Position numbers and translations under genes: made by a program. Below are positions 8,413 to 59,410 of a stretch of DNA of 64,000 nt, one piece after another. Location: positions 6,200,001 to 6,264,000 of the forward strand of contig OZ004591.1 in NCBI GenBank assembly GCA_963924555.1, written 5' to 3'. Numbering within the stretch: position 1 is the first letter of the stretch; each line of letters begins with the position of its first letter. The DNA is from Crambe crambe. Its lineage: Eukaryota; Porifera; Demospongiae; Poecilosclerida; Crambeidae. Below the pieces are notes generated by a model. That model was not told the origin of the DNA and did no database searches. It saw only the letters and a program-made list of their open reading frames with translations.

Positions 8413-8529
8413 AACTCAATCACACAGCTACAGTAACATACAAGAGTATTTTAATTGAAAACCCTTTACCCATTAGTATTGAAAGAACCTTTGCACAAGA
8501 CGCTCCGTTCCTTACAGCGTGTGGTAACA

Positions 8530-10437
8530 ATGGCGGAATCAGCTCCTTCGATACCTGCCCCTGGAACTCCCAACCCTCTTTCAAGAAAGCTCCATAAAAT
8601 TCTAGAAAGCAACTTAGACAATGATAAAGAGACTCTAGATGCTCTGAAAGTCCTATCTGATTGTCTGGACAAAAATACTCTCCAAGCAAGGAGAAATCTA
8701 CGCAGTGACTTGGAAAAGAGAAGTCTATCTCTGAACGAAGACTTTCTCCACTGCGTGCAGGAACTGGTAGAGCAAGTGAAAGGACTACAGGAAGAATCGG
8801 CGAATATGAAAGCGTGTTGTGATGATATGCAGAGGCGATTATCAGGTGCCAAGTCTAGGACAACTGGACTCTTGAAGGAGACCTCTCAATTACAAGCCAA
8901 AACTAAGCTACTGGATATGAAATCTACTGTGGTCTCTGCTTTCCTAGAGAAATTCCAGCTCACCCCTCAGCAGCTGCAATTGTTGAGTGGACCGCCTGCA
9001 GGATCTAGACAAATGACTTCATCTCTGAACAGGCATAACAATATTGACAAGGATTTCTTCGAGGCGATGAACAGGGTGAAGCAAATTCATGAGGATTGTA
9101 AAGTTTTGCTGCATATGAGCAAGCAACGAGCAGGTTTGGAGATCATGGAATCCATGGCTATGCACTTGGAGTCAGCTTACGAGCAGCTGTATCACTGGGC
9201 ACAAAATCAGTGTCGCCTGATGACTAGTGAGGTCCCTGACTTGAACGCCACTCTACGTGATGCTCTGAAAGAGCTTCGCAATCGACCAATTCTCTTCCAG
9301 TATTGCATAGACGAGTACAGCATTGCAAGAAGAATGGCCCTTGTGCAATTCTTCATTGATGCCCTCACTCGTGAGGGAAACTCAGGAAGACCCATTGAGT
9401 TACACTCACATGACCCTGTTCGTTATTGTGGCGACATGCTAGGCTGGCTCCACCAGGCCATTGCTACAGAGAATGACCACATTTCTAGCCTTTTGATGGA
9501 CCATGATCCAGAGAAAGCACTCTCCATTTTGAGCATGATTACAGAGGGATGTTGCAGACCTCTTCATGTTAGGATTGAGCAGGTTATCATTTCAGCATCG
9601 AGTGCCGTCATGGCCTATAAACTAGTGAACCTTTTACGATACTACTCCAGTGTGTTTCAAAATCACCTTGGTCCGACAGCTCCACTAGTCAAGACAGTGT
9701 GTGACCTCACAGAGCTTCAATCAAAAATGTTTTTCAGCACTCTAAATGCCCAAACTGCAAAAATTCTCGGAGAAGTCCAAACTCCTCTACCTGATCTTTC
9801 ACCAACACCCAAAGCTTCAGAACTTCTCGTCTTACTCCAGAGTTTACTCTCCTCTAGGGACATGACTGTGTTCACTGGTGATGACCAAAATCAAGACTTG
9901 AAATTGATTTTGAGTTCTTGTATTGATCCTCTTATTCAGTACTGTATCGAGTCTGTATCTTCAATGAGCAGATTGGACAGAGCAATCTATATGATCAATT
10001 GTCTCTACTTTGTCCAGAGCACCATCTCTCTCTACGAATTCACAGATAGGCAAGTGGAGAGTTTAGAGATGCAGATAGAATCACATTCAGAGTCTATCGT
10101 TTCGGAGCAATTTGGGTTCCTCTTGAACACCGCTGGTATATCTGGTTTCTATGACTCACTCTGTCATGGGAAAGTTTCAGAAGAGAACTTTACGGCAATT
10201 GAAGGGTGTTCAGATCAGCTAAAAGCATTGATATCAGCTCCAGATCAGTATCAATTGCCACAATCCAAGCTTCTGTCCAGTGGTCGACTGAGAGATACAA
10301 TTTTGAAGAAATCTGTAGATAAATTTTGTGTAGCATATGAGTCTGTATATGGTGCTGTGTCTGAAGAGAAGGGAGCTGATGGTGTTCTCATGTTCATGCC
10401 TTACACCCCAGATCAGACTAGGCAACTACTAAATTAG
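8530..10437 (+). CDS. COG6: Conserved oligomeric Golgi complex subunit 6
   Basis: Single open exon of 635 residues, close to the usual 650 of animal COG6. The start at 8530 (ACAATGG) begins MAESAPSIPAPGTPNPLSRK; an in-frame upstream TTG is not needed. The N-terminal 150 residues are heptad-rich, with the family-typical stretch from LSGAKSRTTGLLKETSQL to FQLTPQQLQLL, followed by the long helical-rod region. COG6 belongs to lobe B of the COG tether, which docks recycling vesicles at the Golgi. The 117-bp gap from the ANKRD42 stop codon, same strand, leaves little room for a promoter. The absence of introns contrasts with all other complete genes here and may reflect intron loss or an ancient retrocopy; the frame is fully open and conserved, so I consider it functional. 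Confidence 0.93.
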   Translation: MAESAPSIPAPGTPNPLSRKLHKILESNLDNDKETLDALKVLSDCLDKNTLQARRNLRSDLEKRSLSLNEDFLHCVQELVEQVKGLQEESANMKACCDDMQRRLSGAKSRTTGLLKETSQLQAKTKLLDMKSTVVSAFLEKFQLTPQQLQLLSGPPAGSRQMTSSLNRHNNIDKDFFEAMNRVKQIHEDCKVLLHMSKQRAGLEIMESMAMHLESAYEQLYHWAQNQCRLMTSEVPDLNATLRDALKELRNRPILFQYCIDEYSIARRMALVQFFIDALTREGNSGRPIELHSHDPVRYCGDMLGWLHQAIATENDHISSLLMDHDPEKALSILSMITEGCCRPLHVRIEQVIISASSAVMAYKLVNLLRYYSSVFQNHLGPTAPLVKTVCDLTELQSKMFFSTLNAQTAKILGEVQTPLPDLSPTPKASELLVLLQSLLSSRDMTVFTGDDQNQDLKLILSSCIDPLIQYCIESVSSMSRLDRAIYMINCLYFVQSTISLYEFTDRQVESLEMQIESHSESIVSEQFGFLLNTAGISGFYDSLCHGKVSEENFTAIEGCSDQLKALISAPDQYQLPQSKLLSSGRLRDTILKKSVDKFCVAYESVYGAVSEEKGADGVLMFMPYTPDQTRQLLN

Positions 10438-30994: not shown

Positions 30995-31314
30995 ATACAA
31001 CCACTCCTATAATTATTGTAGCAACCACACAGCTGTACTGTCACTGTTGTGTCCTCCTCACACGCACTTTATGCTTTGTGTTTCACCCACTTGAATGAAT
31101 ATCTTTTATCTTCGTTGTTAAGATTGCTACACAACATTATTAGATCTGTGAAAATTTATTATAGCATGATAATATTGTATTAGGAGTTTTATTTTAGTAT
31201 GTCTATCAAATCCTTTTCCCGTATACTCTCCGTTTCCTTAGCGTGCACGGTCGAGAGATTGAACTTTGAACTCAGAGTTGCTGGCTATGGCTGAAGTGAA
31301 CCAGACCCTGAAGC
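30995..31314 (+). other. Intergenic region AGFG to Kelch gene
   Basis: 3' flank of AGFG and 5' flank of the Kelch gene. AT-rich to 31200, then a less AT-rich stretch before the start codon, probably the promoter. No repeat recognised. Confidence 0.5.
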
Positions 31315-33876
31315 ATGGCAGCACTAATGGAGTGGAAGTATGAGCCAGAATCCCGTGTATATCACTACGGTGCTACAGTGGAAGGGCGTATCTACGTATG
31401 GGGAGGGATAGATATAGACACACAGAAAGATCTACCTGTCTCTACTGTGGAGATCTTCAGTCCTAATCCTACTGTTACAGCCCACTCTAGGTCGCCTCCA
31501 GGAATATGGAGCCAGTCAAGAGTGAAAGGACCTTCGCCTCCTGGGAAATATTGTGGTGTGAGTGCATCTTTAGGACACTACCTCTATGTCTACGGTGGCT
31601 ATTCCATGAAAGAACGTGGGATTCCCAGTTCCCTCCACAGGTTGGACATTACAACATTCACCTGGACAGAAATATCAAAACATGATAAGATTTTCAACCA
31701 TTGGAATGAAGGAGGAGCAATGGTGTGTTACAAAGAGAAGCTGGTGTTATTTATGAACAATGTGAACCAGGACGAGTATGAAGTGTGCCCCGTTAAGCTG
31801 CTAGCATTCGATCTCAAGGAAGGTGACTGAGAGAGACAAGTATTGAACGTCTAATAGTGATATTGGTATAATCTCATTTTCTCAGAGACATGGTCTGAGA
31901 TGGGGTCTAGTGGAGAAATTCCCCCAACCTGTACTCGTTCTTCGCTCACCATGACTGATGATCACCACGCTGTCTTGTTTGGGGGTTTCCATCACACTAC
32001 ACTGAGGAACAATCTCACACACACATTTGACTTTGCGGCATTGGTAAATGCTTGCCGAACCACCTGTGATTCTTAGTTTTGTAAGGAATGAGGCTCAAAA
32101 GTAGTGCAAATAATTCAATGGATGATGTGGTCTATATTATCAGAAACAGTGTTAGTATTACTATCAAAAACAATACATATTTAGGTACATGTCATCCAAA
32201 GCAGTACATTATTCATGAACTGAGTATTGGTGTATGATTAGTACTGTATTGATACTACTATACTGCTGGACCAGTGTAACCATGGTTATGGTGATAATAT
32301 TGTTGTAGCATTGGAGAAAACTCACTAGCACTGAGGAAGGTCCCTGGCCTGACAGGAGATGTAACCATGCTGCCTCTTGTCTAGGGTATGGAGGAAGTCG
32401 TCCACAGGTTTTAGTGAGTGGAGGATGAGGAAACTATGGAGAGTTTTTCAGTGATGTGTGGTTGCTGGATTTGGACTCTGAGACATGGAGGGAGGTAAGA
32501 GGACAGTCTCAGTTTTCTGGCAACCAGCAACTTCTAACTGCCCTACGTAGGTGTCTCTAGCCAAGGCTTTCCAGCAGCCAAGATGGGGTCACACTGTTTC
32601 TTCCTTGAGTTCCGGTCCGGGAGTGACAGAAGTGGTCATATTTGGAGGAAACGAGACAGATTGGAGTTCACCAATGGCCAAGACTTTCATATTTAAATTC
32701 AGTAAGTTCTTTTATTCATAGCATTATACAGACAGACTGACTAGCTACTATACATGCATAATCGTCCGGGCAACAACCCAATATGGAAGAAATAGAAATA
32801 CAGGGCACTTTCTAATACATCGTTGTAGTGCTACTACTATCAGAGAGAATAACCTCTACAATGGACAAAATATCCCAATGTTCCCTAAATTTTAGTGGTT
32901 CCATCATTCATTATGACTTATTCTCCATGTCTCTTAAAATGACATTCTGCATAAAACCAGTGATCTATATACAGTGGACCCTCGCTAATCCAAATAGCTC
33001 GGGACTTTAACCTGTAAAATTTTTGGACTAGTGAATTTACCCAATTCGTCACAAAAAAAACAAAAAACTGTGTGCATCTGCATGCAATCAATGGCTGCTG
33101 CTGTTGGAGCTGGTATCTGTGTGCTGGCTTCTTTCAGGAGTGAAGCAAAAGGAGTAAAGTTTTATGATGTGCTTACATCTGAAATTTATATAGGGCAGTC
33201 ACTTCACTGCTCAGTTAGAGCCACTGAACCCATTATGATAGCAACTGTGTTGCCCTTTATCTGCCATCTTCCTTTTATAGGCTCTCAACTCTGGACCTCT
33301 CTTCTTGATATCTGAAATAGTATGCCTATACTCCATAGACAAAACTTTATAGCTCTTTTCCCCCATCTGATCTAGAATCTTTTCCTCGACAGATAAGCTT
33401 TTGTGGGCCTGCTTTGGCATTGGTTTAGAAGCAGCCATAGCAAATAATAGGCTGAATGCTGCTGATTACATTGTGCGTAGTGCACGTGTTGACCTTTGAC
33501 CGCCAATAAAATTATTTGGATTAGCGGGGTTTCAGATTAATGAGATCCAGATTAGCGAGGATCTACTGCATGTATAGATGTTATCATCATGATGTCATTA
33601 TAAGACAGAGAATAAGCCTACATTATTGAGAAGCTTTGCATTGTGTCATGTATAGAGTACCATGAGAAACCCTCTGGGGGAGAGTGGGTTCTGATACATC
33701 AAGCTAAGAAGGGCTACCAAGCTGGAATGGATAGTGCTCTCACTGTGGAGGCAGAGAAAGTGATTGATAACACTTCAGCTTCAGTCGATCTTCATGGCAG
33801 CATGTCAGCTTCAGATGTGGTCCAACAGTTACGACGCTCAAAACGTAATCGTCGACCACCTGACAGATATGCCTGA
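31315..33876 (+). CDS. Kelch-repeat protein with an in-frame TGA, paralogue of the Kelch-kinase gene
   Basis: Five exons: 31315-31822, 31886-32043, 32309-32494, 32551-32701, 33656-33876, matching in phase the Kelch exons of the minus-strand gene at 38.1-57.1 kb (exon 2 is 158 nt in both). Kelch blades show the GG pairs and spaced Y/W: GRIYVWGG, YLYVYGGYS, HAVLFGGFHH, SDVWLLDLDSETWREV, TEVVIFGGN. The last exon starts like the paralogue (YHEKPSGGEWVL against EYQESASTSEWVL) but then ends with a basic tail RSKRNRRPPDRYA; there is no kinase. Codon 262 of 408 is TGA (32426-32428), where the paralogue has CGT for Arg in LVLGGRNSY. Everything after it is still in frame and conserved, so this is a recent nonsense allele, a sequencing error or read-through. 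Function unknown; Kelch propellers bind proteins. Confidence 0.72.
32972..33568 (-). mobile_element. Truncated Tigger/pogo-type transposon
   Basis: Left end CAGTGGACCCTCGCTAATCC, right end GATTAGCGAGGATCTACTG, the typical pogo/Tigger terminal inverted repeat. Inside, 33211-33438 on the minus strand encodes a CENP-B-type N-terminal DNA-binding domain (KSLSVEEKILDQ, HTISDIKKRGPELR). The DDE catalytic part is gone. It sits in intron 4 of the Kelch gene and accounts for most of its length. Confidence 0.85.
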
Positions 33877-34254: not shown

Positions 34255-34805
34255 TATAGCTATTGTCCTGTGCATGCTTTGGCACTGCTCCAGTTCATTA
34301 ATGATGTCCGAAAGCACTTGGTCGATTCTCTTTTTGTTGGTTCAAGCATCTTTGAATAAGTGCTAACAGTTGACGATGATGTATGACCCATCACTTGATG
34401 TCTCTCATCTGAGGGAGGCAGTTCACCAGTCAGCATCTCAATAAGGAGAATGCCAAAGCTGAAGATGTCCATCTTTGGGGACTGCATGTGAGGGTCACTA
34501 GCTTCAGGGGCAGCATATGTTGGGTTGCCAGGACACATTGGTAGAGGTTCAAGGAAGACATTAGCACTGCTGATATCACGATAGATGATTGGATCAGGCT
34601 GCATCTGGTGGAGGTAGTTGAGGGCTCTGGCCACATCCAGGCCAATGGAGGAGACTTGACTGGGAGGCATATATTCTCTCTCCAACTCTCTCCTCAAACT
34701 GGTAGGCATCAGCTCCATCAAGATAATCATCTCCATTGCGTGGGTATCGTGCTGTGTGGCGACTTCTACCTTGTTGGTATGCATTTTCAGAGAGTATCCA
34801 GGCAC
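34255..34805 (-). pseudogene. Decayed TKL-like kinase fragment
   Basis: Close relative of the kinase at 38097-39269 (shared MIILMELM, LNYLHQMQP, GNPTYAAPEA, MDIFSFGILLIEML). Differences that break it: no glycine-rich loop or VAxK lysine is encoded; HRD is YRD; the segment with the DYG magnesium motif and activation loop is deleted between EPLP and CPGNPTYAAPEA; a frameshift scrambles the last 40 residues. A copy of the kinase exon only, without Kelch exons, lying tail to tail with the plus-strand Kelch gene. Confidence 0.85.
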
Positions 34806-34910
34806 CGGCTAGTGCACCCACTGGGGAACCATCTGGGAAGATCAGCTCTGGTGGAGGTGAATATTAGGGTGGCTAGCCTTCTGGAATTCTAATGTCAATT
34901 ATTCTTACAG

Positions 34911-38096: not shown

Positions 38097-41000
38097 TCAA
38101 CGCTCCAGTTCAGAAATAATGTCAGAGGCACTTGGTCGGTTTTCTCTTCGTTGGTTCAAGCACCTCTCAATAAGTGCCAACAGTTGAGGATGTCGTATGG
38201 TGCCCATCACTCGACGTCTCTCATCCAAGGGAGGCATTTCACCAGTCAGCATCTCAATGAGGAGAATGCCAAAGCTGAAGATGTCCATCTTGGGAGACTG
38301 CAGACAAGGGTCGTTAGCTTCAGGGGCAGCATATGTTGGGTTGCCAGGACCTACAGTTTCCAGTTGCTGTTGGAGGTTGACTGATCCATAGTCAGTGACT
38401 TTGGCTCTCCAGCATTCATTTGGTAGAGGTTCAAGGAGGACATTAGCACTGCTGATGTCACGATGGATGATTGGGTTAGGCTGCATCTGGTGGAGGTAGT
38501 TGAGGGCTCTGGCCACATCCAGGCTAATAGAAGACACTACTGTTGGGGCCAGTATATAATCTCTCTCCAGCTCTCTCCTCAAACTGGTGGTCATTAGCTC
38601 CATCAAGATGATCATCTCCCCTTCGAGTGTGGCTCCAACAAACTGTATCAAGTTGGGATGACGTATTCTAGCAGCCATGTTCATCTCTCGCTTGAAGAGT
38701 CGCCTGTTGTGCCGTGAGATAATCTGTCGGTGGATGGATTTAGCAGCCACTTGCATTCCTCTAAAGGTAGCAACACTAACAGTAGCCCAACCCCCTCTCC
38801 CCAGTTCTGGTCCAGTCAGCTGGATCTCCTCCCTTTTCACTACCCACTGGGTCTCAAGTTGATGCAGTTGGTCTTCACATTCTGCTACCCTCTCTTCAGA
38901 CTGCTTGAATCTTCTCTCTGCCTCCCTCGTCCTCTCCTCTGATTCCCTCAACCTTCTGTCCGATTCACCCAATCTCCTCTCCAACTCTTCTGCTCTTCTC
39001 TTGCTCTCCCCTAACTTTTTCTTTGATGCTTGAAGTCTCCTCTCAGCAATTCTAGCAGCTTCTGACATCCTTTTTTCAGCTTCTTTGACCTGTTCCTTGG
39101 CTTCTTGGACTCTCTGATCCAGTTTCATCATTTCAGTAGACTGCTGGGTCATGGGAGTACATGATTTAGCTTGAATGATTTCACTCTTCTTTGCATTCTT
39201 CTTCGTGATTATCTCTGCGATCCTCTCCATTGTTCCTAGCTGAGTCATACCAGCTACATCAGTCAGCACCCACTCACTAGTGGAGGCACTTTCTTGGTAC
39301 TCTGTGAAATAAGAATCATTCAGAATGAGCAGCTAGTAAGTTGAGTGGATAAATTTTGCCAACATAATACATAGTCATAACATGAACTACAGAAGCTCCA
39401 ATAAAGGACCCTCTGTCACCTCCATAGTTATAAGGACACTTTCCATGTCCCCAGAAGTTAGTTTTTCCCTATGGAACTAAGACAATCTCCCAAATAATTG
39501 TTGTGTGGATTAGAATTATTTTTTTTGGCTTTTTGTAGTGTTGTGGTTTTGTGTGACATCCTGCATGTTCATTAAGGGTCATTCCATGTGAGATCAACAG
39601 ACACACCTCTCAGATTTCTCTCAAACTTTGTATACACAGAGTATGCATGGAGATATAAACCACAACAATTTTAGGTGCTTAAGTTTATGGGGACTCTTTG
39701 TATACATTTCATTGTACCTTGGCACATAAATGGATTATATCTCTGTATTGGATTGAGATATTACAAAACTAATAGGATATTCTTGTAGCACACGAAAAGG
39801 GCTTTAAGATGATATTTTACATGTATATGGTTAATTGGATTAGGGTCACGGTCAATTTTCAGAGATAATTTCTCCAGGTCAGGATCCTCTAATTTTTGTG
39901 AAATTTGTTCAAATGTACCTTTGACCTTCCTGAGTATGTGGTTAAAATTTTGTTTTGGGCTGTCCATGGGTTTAAATTTTCAGTGTCATTATACAGTTCG
40001 AGGTTATATTTCTAATGGATACTTTAATGATAAAGAATTTTTCATATTAAAATTATAAAGTTGGAAATTGGATAATTATATAAGTAGCTAGCTTTTTTAG
40101 TTTTTGTGTAGCAGCCTTGCTTTCATCTTGTGTGAGTGAGTAGGAACAGCCTGTTGTGGTGCGGGGCTTTACAACAGTCAAAATATCTGTTATTGGAACA
40201 TGAAGGATAAGTGGATAATTATACCATCGACTAGGTCCATTAGGAGATCAGTTTCAGTTCACCATTTTCACTATCTTTCTCCAAAACTTGAACCACCCAC
40301 CACTGACTCCTATGAATGCATGCATGTTACATGTCCTGTAACTTAATTCCTCCACTTCCAAATCTGTTGAAAACTTGTTTACTCTATGAAGTTGAGAATT
40401 ACTAGAAGCTTGGTTAACACAGTATCTTGTGACTGTGGTATGAAGCAGGGTAACCTGGAATTGTTTGGCAGTTATTAAATCGTGTTTCAAAATTTCCTTT
40501 TTCTAGTCATACTCTTCTATAGAGAAGATACCAGGTATGTTGGAAGATGACCACTGATACAGTTGAAATGGTGTCATAATCTGATCCGCCTTTGTAAGCT
40601 GGCTTTTGTTGCAAGGCCACCAAGTCCATTGCATGCACCTTTTCCATGTGATGTTGCTGAGAAGTGCCATTCTGCTGAAACATGAAAATCAGCTTGGTGA
40701 TTGCATAAGTTGGTGAAATTTTTTTTGATTTTTATATTGCAAGGAAGCACCATCTGAGAAGTACATAATGGTCACAGGAAAAAAACCTAGAGCATGCTTC
40801 AAGAATGTGTCTTGTATAACAAAGGCATAATTCTCCGAAAAATCAGCACATACTATGATGTCATTAGGATGATTTACTCTCATCAAAGAATTTACTCTGT
40901 TGTGAAGCAATGAAGGAATGAGAATGGAGAGCCTCAAGCTTCTCACAGAAGGTTTTGATGAAATCATCAGAATGCTGACTTACTGTCTCAAGTGAGGAGC

Positions 41001-47000: not shown

Positions 47001-50000
47001 ATAGATGTTCCTCCTGTGCAGCAACAAAGTGGTATCGTGGATCACAGGGAGTTATTTGCTCCTTTATAAGCAAACATCATTTCGTCCCCCAATCTGATTT
47101 ATATATGCATGGATGGAATGGGAGCTATTTCATCCTAGGCACAAATGACTCCCTGAAAAATTTATATCCATGGAATACATCCTAGGTACAAATGACTCCC
47201 TGAACTGAGATAAATGGACTCCACATACATGTGGTTGGAGCCAAACTAGCTATAGGAGAGTCATCCCAGGCACGAATGACTCACAATGAAGTGAACTTGT
47301 ACATGGAGTGGCACGGATTATACAGCTACACCAGAGTCATAGCCATGGAAAGGGAGTTATTTCATCCTAGGCACCAATGACTCCCTGAATTGAGATAGTT
47401 GGACTACATGATTGGAGTCATAATAGCCATGGAAGGGGAGTCATTTCATCCTAGAGGCACCAATGACTTCAGGAGTCATTGGTTCCTAGGATAAAATGAC
47501 TCCCCTTCCATTCAGAACGGTGCAGCCATGAAAGGGGAGTCATTTCATCCTAGGCACCAATGACTCCATGAATTGAGATGACTGGACAGTCATGATAGCC
47601 ATGGAAGGGGAGTCGACACATCCTACAGGCATCCTATCCAATAACTCCCTGAAAATCTTGCCTAATGCCTGGCTATAGGATGAAATGACTCCTCTTCCAT
47701 GGCTGTCATGACTCCAACTATGCATGCATGGGGGAGTCCATCTATCTTGATTCAGGGAGTAATTTCTTCCTAGGCACAAAAGAATCCATTCACTCAATTT
47801 CACAAGCAACTATGGTATAAATCCTTGACTTATTATGATTTTGCATGCAGCAATGCAATGAATTGGGACTGGTGAGTCTTTTTTCAGGGGCAGACAAGTC
47901 AGAAATGACTGGGGAGTCACTCAGACCTAGGTGTGAGTGACCGGGAGTCATCCACGCCTAGTCAAGAGTGTTCGGAACTGGGGAGTCATTTTTTCCAGGG
48001 GGGAGTCATTATAGACTAGTCAGAAATGACCGGGGAGTCACTCAGACCTAGGCGTGAGTGACCGGGAGTCATCCACGCCTAGGCATGAGTGACCGGGAGT
48101 CATCCACCCCTAGTCAGGAGTGACCGGGGAGTCATTGCCGAGGGGAGTCACCGCTGTGACTATGACAACGGTTTCTGGGTCAAAGGTCACCAGGTCGCGC
48201 GTGCTCAAAAAACTAGGAAAATCTCTGATGCTTGATTCCAGTAACTATTGTTTTGAAGTCTAGTAAGCTCAGCATTGACTTTTCGGCACCTCTTTTATTT
48301 GTTTATGGTCTCAAAAGTCTTCTATTTGCAGGTGAAGCTTGGAACTTGATGGTGTCAGAATTTTTTGCAACAGGTCAAAGGTCACAACTCTAGCCATGCC
48401 AATCAAGCTCCAAGCTTCACCTGCAAACAAAAGGCTTTAAAAGAGACTATGAACAGATAATGGAGGTGCTGAAAAGTCAATGCGGAGCTTAAAATAAAAG
48501 TTACTGGAATCAAGCATCAGAGATTTTCGAGCATGCGCGACCTGGTGACCTTTGACCCCAGAAACCATTCCCAAATTAAAAAATCGCCTTTCAAGGCAGA
48601 CATCAACTGACTAGCGAATCTGTCATTAGCTTTCTCGGTCTCTCGATGCTCAGAGCGTAACTCTAGGCACTAGTCTGGTTATGAATCAAACCCAACAGTA
48701 TATCAGGTACATATCAGTAAAGGCCTAAAAAAATTATTCAATCTTATCATTTCAGCTCATACAATATTATGAAATCTCCAATGAACTACATAGCTACAAT
48801 ACGTGAACTTTAACTTTTGATAGCATCCAGTTGCCTGTAATAAAATAATAGAATATTACATCAAAAAAAGATGATGAACAAGTAAAATAAAAAAGGGAAG
48901 TAGGGATGGCTGTGTGCGGTTCAAAAAAAGTTCAGCAATAAGAGTGAATTTCAGTCAAGTAACCCCTTACCCATCACCAACTACGAGGTAACTATTCCAA
49001 CTTCACTCCCTTAAATTATATCGCATCATGGGAGTGAAGTAGGAATAGTTGGCTCGTAGTTGGTGATGGGTAAAGGGTTACTTGACTGAAGTTCACTCTC
49101 TTGTTGCTGAACTTTTTTGAACCACACACGGGTGTTTCCTCTACGTTAATTTAGAACTTGTACATTTTAATTACGGTATGTGTCTGGGCCCATAGCAACC
49201 TGACCTCTTGGTTGCCTAGGGTCTGTTGACCTCCCCAGGTCCATTAACCATGTAGAAAATACTTAAAAAGGTCAAACAGCACTAGAACATGGCCATCAAA
49301 TGCTTTGCGCATGCTAAATACACACGATAAGCAACTGAGCATTCGGTTTCCAAGCAACGGTAATTTGATTCATAAAGAAGGCGGTCGCTTGTGGTTCAAT
49401 TGCTAAACTCTAAATATACTATGGCCCATTTTTTTATAGCAATGGAACACTATCTAAGTAACCAAAAAAAATTGTGTAGAATCTGTGGGCTGAAATTGAA
49501 ATCATATAGTCATGACCAAAAAATGAGACATAATGTCTACTTCCTTTGGGGTGGATACCACTGATGAGGATGAAGCACATCTGTATGCCATAATTGCTAC
49601 AGAATAATGCAGAAAATAGAATCAGTCAAGACTAGGGTAGCATTCAACACTGACCTGAAAATTTCAACATGGGTACCACATCATGAATTTTGCAACATCT
49701 GCTATGGTCGTAGTGGTGGTACTAAAAAGGTCAAGTCACAGGGAAGGCCCCGAAATGATATTACTCATTTAAGTAGAGAGATGATGAGGGCAGTCAACAC
49801 CATAAACCCTCCTAAGTACACTGACCTAACATTGTATTCATCTCTGTTCCTTAAATCTCCATTCCTCGATGATCTACTCTGTCAACATTGCAAATGCATC
49901 CCTAATCAACCTCTGGAACTCATTCCATGCCGGCACCTGATTTGTATATCTTGCATTTCAAAGATTACAGAGAGCCGCACCCTCATCTGTACATGATATA

Positions 50001-53000
50001 TCAATACCCCACCCTTTAGTCTTGAACATACTTGGCAGTCTCTTGCTCAAATACCCCAGAGAGTGTGGTGAAGTGATCGAGCTGGGACATCTGGGGAAAC
50101 ACTTGGCATCAAACTGCTCGCACACAAATACTCCACCCCTATCCCAAATCACACCTACTCGATTCATCACTTAGCAGCACATTAGAACAATACACCATGG
50201 CCATGTTGGCTGAGAAGTTTATACCCTCTAGTGGTTCTGTCACCTACAGGTCACCCAGTGGAAAGGTTTGCCCTAATAACATTAATCCCATAAAGTAGTA
50301 ATGATCTTACCTCTATAGCCACTGACATATGTCAGACTCACTACTCCAAGAGTTGAATCCAGCTCTGCTTCTGCTCGTACTTTGAAATGGAGAAGCAGTG
50401 AGATGGAGCAAGTTAGGGATGTGATCAGCAAAGGCTCTTCAGTAGATCAACTTCAGTAAGAGTTAAAAGTGCTGACAAAGGAAGATAGGCAGTCTCTCTT
50501 GGACACTGCTTCAGTCCATGATGTGTCAACAGTAATCCCCCCAAGTGAGGTCTTGGCCATGAAGCCTGATCTGTCTATCACATGGAGCAAACTCAGGATA
50601 CTACGGAGGTATGATAGTGTATACATCATGCGCTCTCATCATACCTAGATGGATGAGGGAATGGAAAATCAGCTTCGGCACAGAGTACAAAGAGCGGTCA
50701 TTAGCCAAAGACCTTATTGGTGCTAATGTTACCTCAGAGACTGTTGCCTTTACTTTCCCTTTGAATGGTGGAGGAGAAGAAGTTCGCAAGGCACCAATGG
50801 CATACATCCCTGACCTACCAGCAAAAGTCATACAATTGCTTGATTAGAATGATAGGTAAAACTGATACACTTACATCATGAAAAGTTTACATTGAATGAT
50901 ACTACAGACTGGGCCAAATGCAGATGCCATACCTCCAGGTGAAATTTCGCTGAAATTAGGAGGAGATAAGGGTGGCAAGTCGATGAAAATGAATTTTCAA
51001 GTGCTGAATACTCCTCACCCTAATTCTGTGTATAATACATGTGTTTTTTTGGCATATGAGGGGTCAGATACCAAGATGAACCTCAATGTGGGTCTTGGTC
51101 GTTACCAGTCACAAATTAAGGAGCTGCAGAAGTGCAAGTGGAGGTATATTAAACATGCGGACTTAATAAAAGTGTAATGCAATCAATGTATGTAGGAATA
51201 ACAATGGTGATGAATTTTCTGTCAAACTTCTGCTCTCTGGTGACTATGAATTCCTGTGTCATATGTACGGGTTGTCAGGAGCAAGTGGTATGGTGGTTAT
51301 ACCAATCAATCACAATTACCCACTAACTCACCCTAATTTCCCTAGGACGTTTGTGGTGTGAGATAAATGCTGAGCTGAAGGAACCAAGGAGTGAACGTAG
51401 AAAACCTCACATTCGTACTCTCCAAACACTTCAAGATGATCTCAAACGTTCTTAGATGATGGTGGCAATATAAAGAGAGCAAAGTTTTATAACAATGTAA
51501 TCTCAGAATATTTTTTTGATATTCCCATCAACTCTGTAAGTATAGCAAATTTAATCATCAAAAGCGTAATGTTTAAATAACAGGTCTGTTTACCTGGACT
51601 ACACATAACACTTGGGGTGTTCTTTCGCTTATTTACACTGATGGAAGATGAGTGTCACAACCTTATATGAAGATGGCCAAATCAAGTGTAGCGAGTGATA
51701 GTGACAAGCAGTCGTACAGAAATTTTACTGTCATGATTCACAGAGAGAGAGCTGTTAGATAAAAAGAAGACTCTGCAAGACCACGTGAAGCTTTTGAACC
51801 AGACTTTATCACTCCTTACTCTCATGTCTACATCTGCCACCCCTGTGAACTCTGGTACATCAAAAGTGGTTAGCGATGCTATCAAGGAAAAGAAAAAAGA
51901 AATTGGAATTATTGTAAGCCAATTTAAAAGTACAAAGTAAAGTTAGATTGATATGTATCATGTACCCATGAAAAGGATAATGAACTTGCATCACTGACTG
52001 CAAGCAAGGGGTTCAAGAGGAAGGATGGACCCTTTGTTCAGGCACTGGATAATGCTCTGGCATCCTTTAATGTATGCCGTCAGGCATATTATAGTGGAAC
52101 ATTTGTGGGAAATCACATTCATAGGACCTTGAAGGTTAGTTAAGTCATTATTTTTTCAATACTCACCTAAGCAATGGTATTAGACGGCGAACATGCAAAC
52201 TCTTTGTCAGTCAGTTGTTACAACTGCTACCACCCGATGTCCAACACTCATCCACGACGCAAAATTTGTGAATAAAACATTTGAGAAGGCATTCAGCTTG
52301 TTTGCAGCTTGTAGGGCAATCTATGATAGTGGAAAGATCTTGGATGAAAAACAAATTTCAGATCTAGGTAAGTATACAAGTTAGATATGATTGATGACTC
52401 GATCTTTCTTTGTTGCTGGATAGATAAATTCATGGAGTTCTACAGAGAATCATTCCCTGAAGCCACAGTAACCCCTAAACTCCATATGATGGAGGACCAC
52501 ATTGTCCCTTTTCTGCAGAAGTGGAAATAGGCCTAGGATTTCTAGGTGAACAGGGAGCAGAATCAATCCATGCACGCTTCAACTCGATTCGGTGCAACTA
52601 CACCAACATGCCCAACAGGGTTCAAAGATTAGAGTGCATCCTAAAAGAGCACTTCAACCGACAACCTTGTTAGGCAACCACCACCAAAGAAAAGGCCCAA
52701 AAAATCTTCATGATAGATACTTTAAACTTGCATCCCTCCCATTATTATTAATCTTAAATATATAGCTTACTTACCGAATGATTTTCTTCACACAAAAAAT
52801 GAGCCATTACTGGGACACAGTCCCATCCTGTTGTGCTTTCTCAGAGCTTCATTTCCAGCTATCATCCATGTCTTGGAGAGCTTCATAGACTTTGCTACTA
52901 ACAGTTAAAGCGTGTGTTGCCAGCGCTTGGTTTGACCTTTTTCTTTCCTTTGATCAGCTCGATCTTCCTTCTATTGCACATGAGTCACACACGTGGCCAC

Positions 53001-56000
53001 AGGACTGCTGACTAGGCTATAATAACTGTTAAATATATAGCGCTAGACACCGTTGCTATGGTGTTACTATACAATTTGAAAATTTCTCATTTACACGTCA
53101 GTGTCCACGTAATTAATGTAGCGAAACACCTGTGCACACACAGCCATCCCTACTTCTCTTTTTTATTTAGAATAAATATTTTTTCCTTTATTATATAATC
53201 ATCGATGAGATTCCTGCTGTTGCAACTTACTTCTACAGTCTCTTCCTGGATGCAGCTATGAAATCCGTATTTTTAATGTAGTATTCCGTAAATGGGTGCT
53301 GCAATGATTAAACCTCGAGAAAATGAATATCCGGGAGCGTTCCATATCCACGGAGTGCTCTATTATCTATATGGTCTCACTAATAATCTGCATGTTACAG
53401 GACTGTTTATGATTTGGGGCTCAAGTGGAATCCTGAGTGAGTGCAGCAAGGGCCTAAGGGTTACATAATCATGTGGTAGCCTTGTACCCAGGCTCTAAAA
53501 TTATGTGGAGGCGGGAAATAGAGCCTGGTACCTACTGTTTGCACATGTGCCAAAAATTTCATGCGAAATTCCCGCCTATTACATCAGGGTTCTCCCTAGG
53601 CATCTTAAGGCATAGCGGGGCGCTATGCCTCAGTTCTATCCGCTATGCTTTGCCCCTTACCGCTATGCCTTCTTCTTGTACCGCTATGCCTTGTAGATAG
53701 ATTATTCTTGATGTAGCACACCACATTAGTCATGCGTGGTTTGCAATAATAACATAATTCCTTATAAGGCAGGTGTTGTTATTGTAGTACACGTGTAGGT
53801 TGCAATGCATAATTGCTCTAAAGATCTTTGTAGTCAGACCAAGGTTAGATGATAGTGGAAGTAGTAAGTGCAGCTCAGCCTCTAAACCTCTTGTGATTAA
53901 TAAGCTGTTATAGTGCAAATAGAGCTAATCTGGGACCTTATTCAGGGGCGTAAGAAGATGTTTTCTGGTGGGGGGGCTGATGTATGTGTTTTAGCTGACC
54001 ACGCCCACTTTCCTTAACCACACCCATTTTTGGATACCATCAACTGGCTCAACAGTGCAGAGGTGTTGGAAGCAAGATTCGATTGGTCAAGCCCAAAATT
54101 GAAACAAATTCCCCAGAACACCGAAGTTCTACAGTTTGCTATACTTGAGCATCATATGTATTTAAGTTATTGATTGATAGCCACATAATAATTAATCCCA
54201 AAATATTTTATTATTGATTGATAGCCACATAATAATTAATCCCAAAATATTTTATTATTGATTGATAGCCACATAATAATTAATCCCAAAATATTTTATT
54301 ATTGATTGATAGGCACTTAATAATTAATCTTGTTTTTCCCAAAATATTGGTCAGGCCTGGGCCTGACTGGCCTTATCTGTTCCACCGCCTATGCAGTGGC
54401 ATCAGTGCTTGTGATTGAGGTCTCTGAAGATGGACCAGCATCATCACTTGTAATTTTTATTATAATGTACATATGCAATCTTACATCGATAGTTACCTGA
54501 GAACTGAATTGGAGCGATGAATTCTCCTCTGTGCCATAGTAGAGCCAAGCTAACTGCTGAGTTAGGTGTTACTAATACTTAATTAACCATTCTGTGATGT
54601 TAATACTTAGCTAGTAGGTGTTATTAATACTTAGTTGACATGCAGCATCTGTTTTGCATATACTAATGCCTATGTGCATTTTGAGTGGGGGGGCTGAAGC
54701 CCCCCCAGCCCCCCTGCTTCTTACGCCCATGTTATTGGATTCGCTATATTTCAGCTTCTGCACTATGCATGGGAGGGGGAACATCCCCCTCCCGCACCCA
54801 CCCCCTGTGGATGCCATACAAGCTCACCCCTATGCCTTAAGAAAATCCTGGGGAGAACCCTGTACATGTTATGATGGTGAGTGATGTCACAACATGTAAC
54901 TACGTGTATGAGCATGTGCTATAAGATACCAAGAAAGCTATTGCAATGAAATTCTCTGGAGAAGACTGGCACTTCTAAAACTAGTCATAATGGCAAGAAT
55001 TTCTTTATCCATAAGCCGCTCTCCCTTAAATCCAGAGGAGATGATCACAGCCTCAGCTCTGCACTATTCCCCAATGAATAAACAAACGGAGAATTCCTTG
55101 CTGCTGCTCCTTGTTCAGTACTAGGTGGGGTTGTCCCAGCTGAGATAGGGTGTAAAACAAACACACCATCCGCGAAGAACTGGTAGTTTGCTGCAGTGCT
55201 GATTTAGTAGTATTGCGTCATGCGTCATGGAAGATTACTGAGAGATTACAATTCCCCAATCATGGGGGAAAATTGGCGCATGCGCAAACAGTGGGTACCA
55301 GGCTCTTTTGCCTGCCTCCGCAAAATTAGAGCCTGGAGATGAGGCTAAATCATGTGGTAGCTAATTGACTAATTTTCTTGGCTGTAGTCATCAATTTATA
55401 CTCCAACCTGTAAACTTTCATTTTGTACTCCAATTGTCAGTATTTTACCATGAATTTATATTAAAATGTGTATAGTGCATTTATGTGTTTTTGCGAGTAT
55501 TTTTTATTTTTTGATATTCTTTGTACTGATGAATGGAGGAGGCTCTGATGTATTTAGCTTCTATTTCAAGTTTCAGGATAGACTCACCTCTTTCCACCTC
55601 CTAGAATTCACATCCAGCATCCATGCATCACTCAGGGCATCAGCATAACTGTTACGCCCCCCAAGCACTAGAAGTTGGGGATTGTCCCCACCATACCCCA
55701 GACAGACAGCAGTATGGGCATATCTCCTCACTGGACAGGGTCCTCCCTCCTGAATGACCAGCTTTTTCCGAGAACAAAAATCATCATGAACACTTCTCAC
55801 AGGATGAACTTCAATTTGAGACCAGTACTAGAAAGATATTGTGATACAGCAGGAATGAGTCACTGGTAAGGACTAAGCAGTAGTGAGATTATTTGGCTTG
55901 TATTAGGAACAATTGATCAGGATCTTTTAGTGGCATACCCCTTGAATGACTCACACTGCATGAGTCATAGCCCTAGCATATCCAAGAACACTTACCATTC

Positions 56001-57136
56001 TCTCCAAGTCCAGGATGTACACATCATTAGTCACACCTTGTCCTGGGACATACCCACCAAACAACACAGCATGATGGTCATCCACCATGGTGAAGGAGGA
56101 GTCACTACAGGGAGGAGGCCTTGTACCACTGACTGTAGGGGAGGACCATGTCCCTAAGGAAACAATTACAATAGCTTTACACTCTTAAAGCTCCAACATG
56201 ATCAAGCCATGGCATGTTGGTGATTTATAGCCTTGTACCCAGGGTCCCCCAAGAGCCTGAGTATGAGACTAGGGGATTGATCATCATGTTGAGATCCAAT
56301 AAGTTTCCTGACAGAGAATGGTACATAGATGCAACACACAGTTTGAGTCACATGACTTGCATGTGACTGCCTTTGATCAACTAGCTATAGCTCTAGCTAC
56401 ACATCATTTTCAAACAAAAATAAAATAAGCATTACAGTAGAACCTCATAAAATAGACAAAGGAATGATCCACCTCTGAATTAAGTGTTTGCTTTTTTTCT
56501 TTGATATACATAGGGTCACAATGTCAGTCATACACCTCACAAAGTAAAGTCATGTGGAATTCCACAGCAAAAGTCCAGATGTCATTATGACAGTGTCATA
56601 TGGTGTGTGTAACTATACATGTACCAACTCAGTGGCAGGTGTAATGAGGTGGTAGTGATGGTAACAACTCTTATTAGGACTCCCTCACCTTCATTCAGGT
56701 CAAAGGTGTGCAGCTTATTAGTATGCCGCCCAGTGTCACGCAAGCCTCCAAATAATACTAACTTCTGTCCATAGCACACCATCCTACATCCTTCCTTCTT
56801 CCCAGCTCTGTCTGATGATGACAATTTTGTCCACGTTAAAGTTCTAGTGTCTAACTGATAAAGAGAGTTATGACATGAAGATCCATCAGACCCACCGTAT
56901 GTATAGAGATGGTGACCTGAGGATGCACAGGCGCCACTATACAGCAGAGGGGGAGGATGTCCTTTAGTAGTTACATGTCTCCATGTCTCCAGTTTGGGGT
57001 CGAAGATTTCTAGATCTGTATTGGATTCAGGTAGTTTCTTCCTATCATTGAAATCATCAGTTTTTCCTTCATAAATATATAACTTTTCTTCCACTGGGAC
57101 GGTAAAGGGGTACAAGCGAGGAGAGGGTTCATACAT
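38097..57136 (-). CDS. Kelch - coiled coil - TKL-like protein kinase
   Basis: Five exons with consistent phase, 734 residues: 56689-57136, 55996-56153, 55588-55827, 43573-43726, 38097-39301. Exons 1-4 form a six-blade Kelch propeller (KLYIYEG, HLYTYGGSDG, KLVLFGGLRD, HAVLFGGYVP, LLVLGGRNSY, EVVIFGGRET). Exon 5 starts EYQESASTSEWVL, then a heptad coil of about 90 residues (ERRLGESDRRLRESEERTRE) and a kinase domain (about 490-734): loop GRGGWATV, Lys521 in VAAK, HRD 613-615 with DISSANVLL, DYG at 637-639 in place of DFG, APE 659-661, FSFGILLIEMLTG. All catalytic residues are present, so an active kinase is expected; DYG occurs in other TKL members. No signal peptide or membrane segment, so cytosolic. 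Intron 3 is 11.9 kb and intron 4 is 4.3 kb, both packed with transposons, while introns 1 and 2 are short. Ligand and pathway unknown. Confidence 0.85.
40689..41695 (-). pseudogene. Transposase remnant of the TTAA element
   Basis: Fragments in several frames: KRNFTPPHKTANFDCITKEL, then CNFKELYQYFKTKYPQQHIG with FSKFAELCPKHC, then in another frame SVCVCTIHQNVKLM, and further on HPNDIIVCADFSENYAFVIQ and MYFSDGASLQYKN. The spaced ADFSENY and FSDGA motifs look like the first two acids of a DDE catalytic triad. I recall similar proteins of unknown name in cnidarians and sponges. At least two frameshifts make this copy inactive. Confidence 0.7.
42403..42652. repeat. Foldback (palindromic) element, 250 bp
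   Basis: Arms of about 110 bp: ATGTAGGGTTAGTCTGTACT reappears inverted as AGTACAGACTAACCCTACAT, with a short central loop around CACCAAGCTGCTTTAACAG. It interrupts the right arm of the TTAA element, so it is younger. Confidence 0.85.
43823..43967. mobile_element. Small hAT-like MITE
   Basis: Starts CAGTGTTCTCCCC and ends GGGAGAACACTG; interior matches 13571-13702 (CACTATGCC, TTTGATGTG). ATTAGG stands on both sides, compatible with a short target duplication. Confidence 0.78.
44815..48140. repeat. 3.3-kb GGAGTCATT/AATGACTCC minisatellite in both orientations
   Basis: From 45270 to 46470 about two dozen copies of a 57-bp unit read GGGAGTCATTCATGCCTAGG-ATGAAATGACTCCC-TTCCATGGCTATAGATTTTTCA. 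From 47085 to 47780 the same unit appears in reverse complement. From 47900 to 48140 a shorter unit (GGGGAGTCACTCAGACCTAG, CGTGAGTGACCG) takes over. Each unit is itself nearly palindromic (GGGAGTCATT...AATGACTCCC). Small pieces of protein-like sequence are embedded at 44.95-45.17 and 46.7-47.04 kb. Confidence 0.88.
44950..47045 (+). pseudogene. PHD-finger and Ulp1-like coding scraps
   Basis: 45061-45160 encodes a PHD-like zinc stretch (YCDCLHDARDMVECEDCLNW, then FHQNC). 46720-46850 encodes RICDEHIILAQHILKMQFPN, similar to WMTDTIINAAQILIKQQFPH of the Ulp1-type protein in the Ginger element at 60.3 kb. Two SQE(E)VDAE acidic phrases at 44960 and 46950 suggest internal duplication. No continuous reading frame remains; it is likely a relic of a related transposon invaded by the minisatellite. 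Confidence 0.5.
48176..48570. repeat. 395-bp imperfect palindrome
   Basis: TCTGGGTCAAAGGTCACCAG and AATCTCTGATGCTTGATTCC on the left return inverted as CTGGTGACCTTTGACCCCAG and GGAATCAAGCATCAGAGATT on the right, centred near 48375, with GGTGAAGCTTGGAACTTGA / TCAAGCTCCAAGCTTCACC inside. Confidence 0.85.
48912..49130. repeat. Foldback element, about 220 bp
   Basis: CGGTTCAAAAAAAGTTCAGC with AGTCAAGTAACCC on the left returns inverted as GTTACTTGACT and GCTGAACTTTTTTGAACC on the right, with the centre near 49025. It sits directly inside the left end of the RAG1-like element. Confidence 0.85.
49607..52680 (+). pseudogene. Decayed gene with RAG1-like RING/zinc region and DDE core
   Basis: Order of fragments: FCNICYGRSGGTKK (49690); RING-like LLCQHCKCIPNQPLELIPCR then HLICISCI (49880-49960); next frame NILGSLLLKYPRECGEVIEL followed by GKHLASNC (50020-50115); KLGGDKGGKSMKMNFQVLNT and PHPNSVYNTCVFLAYEGSD (50950-51080); GDYEFLCHMYGLSGASG and LWC (51230-51365); LHMMEDHIVPFLQKW (52475-52530); and GFLGEQGAESIHARFNSIRC (52535-52600). 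In RAG1 the same order occurs: RING, the NSL..KCPA..C..E..L..Y..H zinc finger, the catalytic CDGMGD, the PNS..., G-G-x(n)-C..C, and the SEGNESGNKLFRRFRK catalytic Glu. Several frameshifts and stops lie between fragments and introns are unclear, so it is inactive. Homology by eye only. Confidence 0.55.
53585..54862. mobile_element. hAT-like non-autonomous element nested in the MULE-type element
   Basis: Begins CAGGGTTCTCCCTAGGCATC and ends with CTATGCCTTAAGAAAATCCT-GGGGAGAACCCTG. Same terminal motif as the MITEs at 13571 and 43823. Contains CGCTATGCCT repeats (53620-53690) and a 44-bp tandem array. No transposase is visible. Confidence 0.75.
54169..54346. repeat. 44-bp tandem repeat, four copies
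   Basis: Units of TTGATTGATAGCCACATAAT-AATTAATCCCAAAATATTTTATTA, the first three nearly identical and the fourth diverged (GGCACTTAATAAT). Confidence 0.9.
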
Positions 57137-57568
57137 GGTTATTGAGCCCCACCCAGTAAATTTTGGTTTGATCAGTTACTAGGGATCGGCTAGTCTGGCG
57201 TTGCTGACTCTTTACTTTCCTTTTATTGGTGAAAGTTGCGACAGTCAGATACCTAACCAGCAAGATGAAATTATCCCTGGTGTGTGCTTCTTCAGGTACC
57301 TCTGTCATCTTCATTAAGTAAAGCCATGGGGAAGGTATTCATACACGTAAGCTACCTTGATACTGACATAGATACTATCCTATCTATGAATTAGTCTGGC
57401 GCAGCCAGCCCCAAGCACTTCCGGTGTCGCAGCGAAAATGTTCCCACGCGCGATTGTTCCACAGGAACAAAAATGCTAGCGTAGGAGTTCCACCCGGAAC
57501 AATCACGCATGCGCGAAAATGTTCCGCTGCCGCATGTATGTTCCTGCATTTTCCTGCCAAAACAATAA

Positions 57569-59410
57569 TGACTACAAAGAGAGCGGTGACGTATGATGAA
57601 GTTTATCAGTATTTGAGTAAGGCTGACTCGAAATACGCTGCTAACTGTTCAGAAAGCAGGAGGAGAGCTATAAGAAAATTTTCTAAGAATGTTGTACTGG
57701 TAGATGGAGTTCTCCATTATGATGAGAGGAAGTGGATCTCTGATTCTAAGCTTCAGCAACAAATATTGAAATCGATCCACAGTGATTCTAGTGGCGGGTG
57801 TCACTTTGGGAGAGATAAAACGAGAGAGAAAATAGCCAAGAGATACTACTGGCATGGAATGTATGATGATATTGATTTGTTTGTTAAAACCTGCATCGAT
57901 TGTCAGAAGGTAGCTATGGCAGCATCTTTAATATTATAAAGCAAAAAACTATGGTTATTATTTTTTCTCAGGCTAATCCTAAATTCATGAAATCATTTTC
58001 CACTTTGAAGCCAATTCCTATCTCGAGTACTTGGGATAGAATTGGGATTGATCTAATTGGCCCGCTTCCTGCTACAAGGAAAGGAAATAAGTCAGTTGTA
58101 ATACAGCAATAGCTAGCTATATGTTAGCCGCAGATTATCATGTGGTTTTGTGCCTGTTTTTTCCTGAACATAATTATTATGTAGCTATGCATGGCCTTAC
58201 TTGTTAGAATGTGCATGCATGCTAACTTTTATATTTTGTTTCAGATATATCATCACATGTATTGATTATTATTCCAAATGGGTGAAGGCCAAGGCATTGC
58301 CAACTAAGGAGGGTCATGGTGTGGCACAATTTTTATATTCATTGATTTGTAGGCATGGTGTACCAAATAAAGTCATGTCTGACCAGGGAAGAGAATTTAT
58401 TAATTCCGTTAATAGCCACCTTTTTAAAGTTACTGGAGTGAAACATTATATCACTGGCATATCACCCACAAACCAACGGTTTAGTCGAACGGTTTAATCA
58501 AACTTTACAAAGGTCCTTATTAAAAATGGTTGGACAAAATGAAAATGAGTGGGAAAGTTACCTCGATTCAGTTCTATTTTCATATCGAACAAGCAAGCAG
58601 GACTCAACGAAATATTCTCCTTTCTTTTTGCTCTATGGTCGTGAGCCAAGACTACCAGTAGATTTAATTATTGAAGAAAAAGAGGTGTGTATGTATGTAT
58701 GTACATGTATGTATGTATGTATGTATGTATGTATGTATGTATGTATGTATGTATCTGTGTGTGGGTTTCTTGATCAGCAATAATTATACATAGTAATGAT
58801 ATACAGGGAGATGATTTAGATGAAGACAAGAATGATGAAGGTGGAGCTGAGGTACTCAATTAATTTGGTGCATGAAAGAGGCACGATTGTCACAGGGGCA
58901 CCCTCCCATATCTTTTTATTACTAGCTCAACTGCATGTCTATGCAGGGAGATGATGGAGATCAAGATTTGAAAAGTGACCAGAATATGAAACAGTTGGTA
59001 AAAGTGGGAGATGATAAGGTAATAAAACAGTCATTGTGCATGTAGCTATAATAATTATTATAATAGTTGTTGCAGGAAGATGACTTAGAAGATCGGGTCA
59101 AGATGATGGTACAGCTAAGGAGCCAGTTGGATGTTCAGGTGAAGAGTAATGTGAAAGCTGCCCAAGAAAAGCAAAAGAAGCATTATGACAGATGGCACCA
59201 GGAAGGAAGTAGGCCAAAAAGTTTTGGTAAGGAACATGAAGAAGTTGTCTAAAAAGGGGGACAAAATGGCACCTAGCTAACTGGTTTGGCCCTTATGAGG
59301 TAGCAGAATGTATTGGCACTAACACATATCACTTGAAAAAGAAAGATGGAAAAGGTCGTTTGAAGGTTGCATATAGCTAGCAGTACAAGATTAAAACTCT
59401 TCAATGAAAG
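57569..59410 (+). pseudogene. Ginger integrase (H2C2 zinc finger plus DDE domain), frameshifted
   Basis: Exon 57569-57909 from ATGACTACAAAG encodes an HHCC zinc finger (HSDSSGGCHFGRDK to CIDCQK). Exon 57972-58094 has the first Asp (IGIDLIGPLPATRKG); exon from about 58246 has CIDYYSKWVKAKALP and the second Asp (MSDQGREFIN); the Glu follows in NGLVERFNQT near 58480, in another frame: a one-base shift between ITG and YHPQTNG near 58460 breaks the gene. The end of the core is YGREPRLPVDLII (58640). Acidic mini-exons follow (58807, 58946), and 59076-59400 holds the KAAQEKQKKHYDRW and WFGPYEVAECIG region typical of these integrases, with stops. Confidence 0.82.
58686..58756. repeat. (ATGT)n microsatellite
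   Basis: About 16 units of GTAT in an intron of the Ginger integrase, starting at the donor GAG|GTGTGT. Confidence 0.9.

Follow-up and report, generated by a model that had tools for sequence, protein, structure and literature searches.

The 64,000-nucleotide stretch of the genome of the sponge Crambe crambe analysed here (assembly GCA_963924555.1, contig OZ004591.1, positions 6,200,001 to 6,264,000 of the forward strand; hereafter the window, to which all coordinates refer) carries a decayed DNA transposon of 4008 base pairs (bp) on its plus strand, from 49127 to 53134. With a probability of about 0.93, we assign this element to Chapaev (CMC/CMCT group), as a dead copy of an autonomous cut-and-paste transposon with an N-terminus like that of RAG1, the recombinase of vertebrate antibody genes. 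The assignment to Chapaev, and not to the RAG1/Transib family, follows from the combination of a DUF1280 transposase core, CAC...GTG ends and a 4-bp target-site duplication. An earlier reading made from the sequence alone (the sequence-only reading) had proposed a RAG1-related transposase with the N-terminal module already attached; the module is indeed found on a related core, and it is the family that has to be changed, from RAG1/Transib to Chapaev.

The transposon starts with CACGGGTGTTTC at 49127 and ends with GAAACACCTGTG at 53134, and is flanked on both sides by CACA (49123–49126 and 53135–53138). Comparison of the two ends placed the left terminal inverted repeat, CACGGGTGTTTCCTCTACGTTAATT, at 49127–49151 on the plus strand and the right one, which reads inward as CACAGGTGTTTCGCTACATTAATT, at 53111–53134 on the minus strand; the repeats are imperfect, with 11/16 ungapped matches. 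When CAC...GTG pairs with starts in 48885–49329 and ends in 52950–53171 were screened for equal 4-bp flanks and at least 9/16 terminal-repeat matches, 49127/53134 was the sole pair to pass. These ends and the CACA/CACA flanks correspond to the hallmarks described for Chapaev in PMC4079192, namely CAC...GTG ends and duplications of 3–4 bp.

The insertion is self-proving, since it lies in a hairpin whose other arm shows the empty site, so that ends and duplication can be fixed from a single copy. The 32-bp inverted repeat at 48885–48916 and 53137–53168 (97% identity), which the sequence-only reading had rightly noticed and had taken to bound the transposon, forms the outer part of the arms of an older foldback (hairpin) element that was the target of the transposon's jump. 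A long hairpin is present between 48912 and 49129, and joining the left part of the foldback element (48885–49126) to its right remainder (53139–53168) yields a 272-bp sequence whose two arms match along their length. To restore the empty site, increasing numbers of bases were deleted at the right join and the right foldback arm was compared with the left one over 45 positions. Deletion of 4 bp gave 42/45 matching positions, whereas deletions of 0–3 or 5–12 bp gave 27–38. A 5-bp deletion, which would correspond to the Transib-type duplication (5 bp according to PMC8355894) and to the length that had been anticipated, gave 35/45. Two other arrangements were considered and rejected. One takes the 32-bp repeat for the transposon ends, but the flanks of this repeat give at best a 3/4 duplication and it is explained by the foldback arms. 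In the other, a hairpin would have jumped into the terminal repeat of the transposon, but restoration of the empty site shows the reverse order of events.

The coding content was analysed by a Pfam scan of 29 translated pieces of the element (two sets of 10 and 3, plus 10 minus-strand and 6 plus-strand open reading frames (ORFs), with some overlap). These cover the stop-to-stop ORFs of at least 50 amino acids inside or across the ends of 49127–53134, one of them in part, the last plus-strand ORF overrunning the right end. Two of the 29 pieces (49574–49996 and 50896–51177) gave a match above the curated cut-off; the others gave matches to unrelated families below cut-off or none, the latter being the case for the 10 minus-strand pieces. 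The peptides named in the sequence-only reading are all encoded on the plus strand, in the RAG1 order that it had described.

Resemblance to RAG1 is strongest in the Chapa (RAG1 importin-binding) region, CRICG ... CHNCYRIM ... WVPHHEFCNIC (49475–49702), which the sequence-only reading had not mentioned. The plus-strand piece at 49574–49996, comprising the second part of this region (CHNC...WVPHHEFCNIC) and, after it, a RING finger, matches PF12560 (RAG1_imp_bd) with an expectation value (E) of 6.9e-9 (36.1 bits, cut-off 23.3) and the RING family zf-C3HC4 with an E of 1.6e-4 (21.9 bits, cut-off 21); a stop codon occupies the expected position of the last zinc ligand. Upstream on the same strand, the probable start of the transposase (49421–49561, MAHFF...LCRICG) holds the first zinc pair of the Chapa region and matches PF12560 below cut-off (E 0.0032, 17.5 bits). 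The two pieces are co-linear on this profile, covering positions 91–120 and then 164–222.

Five pieces of the element were also compared with the PDB, matches being considered up to an E of 10. For the Chapa and RING piece, RAG1 chains were the top 3 of 12 matches (whole-sequence E 4.2e-4, 4.2e-4 and 2.4e-3; best-stretch E 0.063, 0.063 and 0.0041), followed by eight matches from RING ligases and one other. In the RAG1 alignment, CHNCYRIM pairs with CHDCWSIM and WVPHHEFCNIC with WHPHTPSCDIC. Judged by these comparisons, the N-terminal similarity to RAG1 is solid and beyond chance, and the RAG1-like N-terminal zinc region of the sequence-only reading is borne out with its RING finger. For the second zinc motif of that region (NILGSLLLKYPRECGEVIELGHLGKHLASNC, 50025–50117, plus strand, in a frame that differs from that of the preceding module) the resemblance is weak: its best PDB match is RAG1 1rmd at an E of 0.11, with an alignment covering NILGSLLLKYP-RECGEVIELGHLGKHLAS, RAG1 accounts for 8 of the 10 rows (E 0.11–1.3), and Pfam returned no RAG1 zinc-finger match. 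The presence of a Chapa region and a RING, both above their cut-offs, is shared with Chapaev transposases, which carry the Chapa region on their cores and, in two subgroups, the RING as well, as described in PMC4411706.

The catalytic core is of the Chapaev type. The plus-strand piece at 50896–51177, with GGDKGG and PHPNS, matches DUF1280 (PF06918) with an E of 5.8e-12 (46.1 bits, cut-off 25), the sole core family above cut-off, and DUF1280 has been assigned to Chapaev transposases (PMC3985635). The first catalytic Asp is probably that of GGDKGG (codon 50965–50967), and the second probably that of SGDYEF (codon 51242–51244) in the next translated core piece, 51196–51287 on the plus strand, which also contains GLSGAS. 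Further downstream on this strand lie KLHMMEDH (52477–52500), holding the LH and H(4)H motifs, and GEQGAES (52545–52565), the region of the catalytic Glu. A query of this last part of the core, composed of two frames combined with two X, had a single PDB match up to an E of 10, namely RAG1L 6b40, and a weak one (E 0.98 for the whole sequence, 4.7 for the stretch). In this alignment KLHMMEDH pairs with YLHKVIEH, GEQGAES with SSEGNEA, and GEQGAESIHARFN with SSEGNEAGNKLFR. Of the motifs C(2)C, LH and H(4)H described as characteristic of Chapaev (PMC4079192), KLHMMEDH provides the last two, whereas C(2)C is left with its first Cys only, in GASGRLWCEIN, read across a probable intron (51288–51345).

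As far as sequence comparison goes, the similarity of the core to RAG1 is weak, and the match at the catalytic Glu would fit a distant kinship. The RAG1-like core of the sequence-only reading holds in a wide sense, by the published grouping of Chapaev, Transib and RAG1: EnSpm/CACTA, Mirage, Chapaev and Transib are grouped in PMC12730594, where RAG1 is described as sharing C(2)C and H(3-4)H motifs, and RAG1 and DUF1280 are placed in one clade in PMC3985635. It does not hold for the RAG1/Transib family proper. The profile search that had been proposed returned DUF1280 for the core, and neither there nor elsewhere among the 29 pieces was there a Pfam match to a RAG1 or Transib family. Since the motifs are common to the whole group and RAG1, they alone leave Chapaev and RAG1 undecided.

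A true RAG1-like transposon of the Transib/ProtoRAG clade, bounded by the 32-bp repeat, would account for the RAG1-like N-terminus and for the weak similarity of the catalytic-Glu region to RAG1L. We nevertheless regard it as very improbable, given the DUF1280 core, the CAC...GTG ends with a 4-bp duplication, and the identification of the 32-bp repeat as foldback arms. Moreover, the 29 pieces, from both strands, gave no Pfam match to Kelch or RAG2, and the nearby Kelch ORF lies outside the element and matches general Kelch families. The absence of RAG2 is by itself a weak argument, since some TransibSU copies are reported to have lost RAG2L (PMC4411706). The Chapaev transposon described here resembles RAG1 and the RAG-like elements (ProtoRAG, TransibSU) in its Chapa region, RING and second zinc motif, in a distant kinship of the core and in the weak catalytic-Glu match, and differs from them in a core without RAG1/Transib-family match, in a duplication of 4 and not 5 bp, and in that no RAG2-like gene was found within it.

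An element similar to N-RAG-TP of the sea slug Aplysia, described in PMC8355894 as wholly RAG1 N-terminal-like sequence, would likewise be a transposon bearing a RAG1 N-terminal-like region. This explanation is hardly credible here in view of the DUF1280 core, which stands against the N-terminal-like sequence alone of N-RAG-TP, an element compared by its description in that source only. N-RAG-TP may itself be a relative of Chapaev, in which case it would be no true rival. The broken coding stretch, in which no single continuous reading frame can be demonstrated, would also allow a composite of N-terminal and core fragments brought side by side by two chance insertions. This is the least probable of the alternatives, close to negligible: one pair of ends and one duplication enclose all modules, the modules lie on one strand in the RAG1/Chapaev order, and Chapa and RING on a Chapaev core have been published (PMC4411706).

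Several observations count against the assignment to Chapaev. The ends and the duplication were read from one copy at a CA-rich site, the duplication sits in a CACACA run, and the empty-site test varied the right join only. The second Cys of the C(2)C motif is missing (LWCEIN), and the LH/H(4)H motif aligns with RAG1L as well and thus does not separate Chapaev from RAG. Among PDB chains, the DUF1280 piece (KLGGDKGG/PHPNS/EGSD) had no match up to an E of 10, and the SGDYEF/GASG piece had chance-like matches only, with plastocyanins first and RAG1 not among them. Protein scans of the viral_contigs and genome_contigs collections, which are not expected to hold animal transposons, revealed no relatives. 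Furthermore, the element is assigned by its domains, ends and duplication, and placement in a Chapaev subgroup would need a tree.

Among the systems described, the closest is the Chapaev group with Chapa and RING of PMC4411706, with which the element shares the Chapa region, the RING and the Chapaev-type DDE core. The genomes named there for the identification of Chapaev are those of lancelet and sea anemone, whereas the present copy is decayed and comes from a sponge. Chapaev3 elements (Garfield, Merrow and Conan; PMC4079192) have the same CAC/GTG ends and the LH and H(4)H motifs; they are described as duplicating a 3-bp TWA site, whereas the duplication observed here is the 4-bp CACA.

The transposase coding stretch is interrupted by stops and frame changes, and owing to these the copy is dead and cannot work as it stands. 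Short GT-AG introns probably explain part of the frame breaks. A probable intron on the plus strand at 51144–51195 (GT...AG) would join KCKWR to NNNGDEF in frame, as judged by eye, and splicing of another at 51288–51345 on the same strand would yield GLSGASGRLWCEIN; an alternative donor at 51285 likewise keeps the frame. Other GT/AG candidates are found at 50856–50907, 51536–51583 and 52368–52423. The longest open stretch, of 140 amino acids, is not unusual: when the bases were shuffled 200 times, a longer one arose at least 10 times, so openness alone proves nothing and the proof lies in homology. Two pieces were also modelled structurally from their single sequences, and these models, with a mean predicted local distance difference test (pLDDT) score of 37.6 and 39.1, were discarded.

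We propose that the intact element carried a transposase gene, probably with introns, encoding in order the Chapa zinc region, the RING finger, the RAG1-type second zinc motif and the DDE (DUF1280) core. By comparison with the known families, the intact transposase would bind the CAC...GTG inverted-repeat ends, cut there and excise the element, and insertion with a 4-bp stagger would generate the 4-bp duplication; the present copy landed in the stem of the older hairpin. If RAG1 is a guide, for whose zinc modules and RING such roles, including that of a ubiquitin ligase, are stated in PMC4411706, the RING may have served as a ubiquitin ligase, and the zinc modules may have kept a dimer together or bound partners.

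The domain arrangement is already described for the Chapaev group in other animals; what may be new is the sponge host and the retention in it of the RAG1-type second zinc motif. No paper on a sponge Chapaev was recognised by title in a literature search, Repbase Reports lying outside its scope. The sequence-only reading had concluded that the N-terminal module did not join the core late. This stands in spirit, as an early fusion, and had been argued from Chapaev elements by Kapitonov and Koonin in 2015 (PMC4411706). The element independently supports the view, already in print, that Chapa and RING were fused to a DDE core before the domestication of RAG1. If it does come from a sponge, it would also add a host from an early branch of the animals. 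A bolder possibility, which we put forward tentatively and consider doubtful, is that a Chapaev lineage of sponges retained, attached to its core, all links of the N-terminal chain of RAG1, from Chapa through RING to the second zinc motif, and that the module is as old as animals; if so, the ancestor of RAG1 need not have gained it by a later fusion. Horizontal transfer of Chapaev has been reported (PMC4079192), and a single host therefore does not date the fusion.

In the remainder of the window, no further copies of the transposon were detected besides the inverted repeats of the element and of the foldback themselves, and Rfam gave 0 matches. At the E-value applied, the window showed no second copy of the foldback element, whose terminus occurs only at its own two ends; a scan of viral_contigs with a terminus pattern, which was that of the foldback end and not of the transposon end, gave no match. 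Just upstream, at 48177–48558, lies another nested inverted-repeat structure, probably a foldback element, with arms 86–95% complementary. Short tandem arrays flank the transposon at 48001–48128 (unit of about 31 bp) and 54123–54329 (unit of about 44 bp).

Two Kelch-repeat ORFs, at 56585–57172 on the minus strand and 31312–31827 on the plus strand, have a KLHDC2/KLHL20/DRC7 Kelch domain as best Pfam match. The former, about 3.4 kb from the element, could be mistaken for the RAG2-like neighbour that the sequence-only reading had suggested looking for. As RAG2 partners both were rejected, being general Kelch proteins outside the element: no RAG2 model appears among the 11 (56585–57172) and 9 (31312–31827) Pfam families listed for them, and no sequence named RAG2 among 60 of the 92 PDB matches of the former. 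Other ORFs of the window include one at 57367–57936 (plus strand) that encodes an integrase H2C2 zinc domain and is probably left over from a retroelement, and one at 8455–10437 (plus strand) encoding the N- and C-terminal domains of COG6 (Golgi complex) in one uninterrupted frame of 660 amino acids. Finally, two similar protein-kinase ORFs on the minus strand, at 34260–34808 and 38097–39332, share stretches such as MIILMELM.TSLRRELER, suggesting a local expansion of a gene family.

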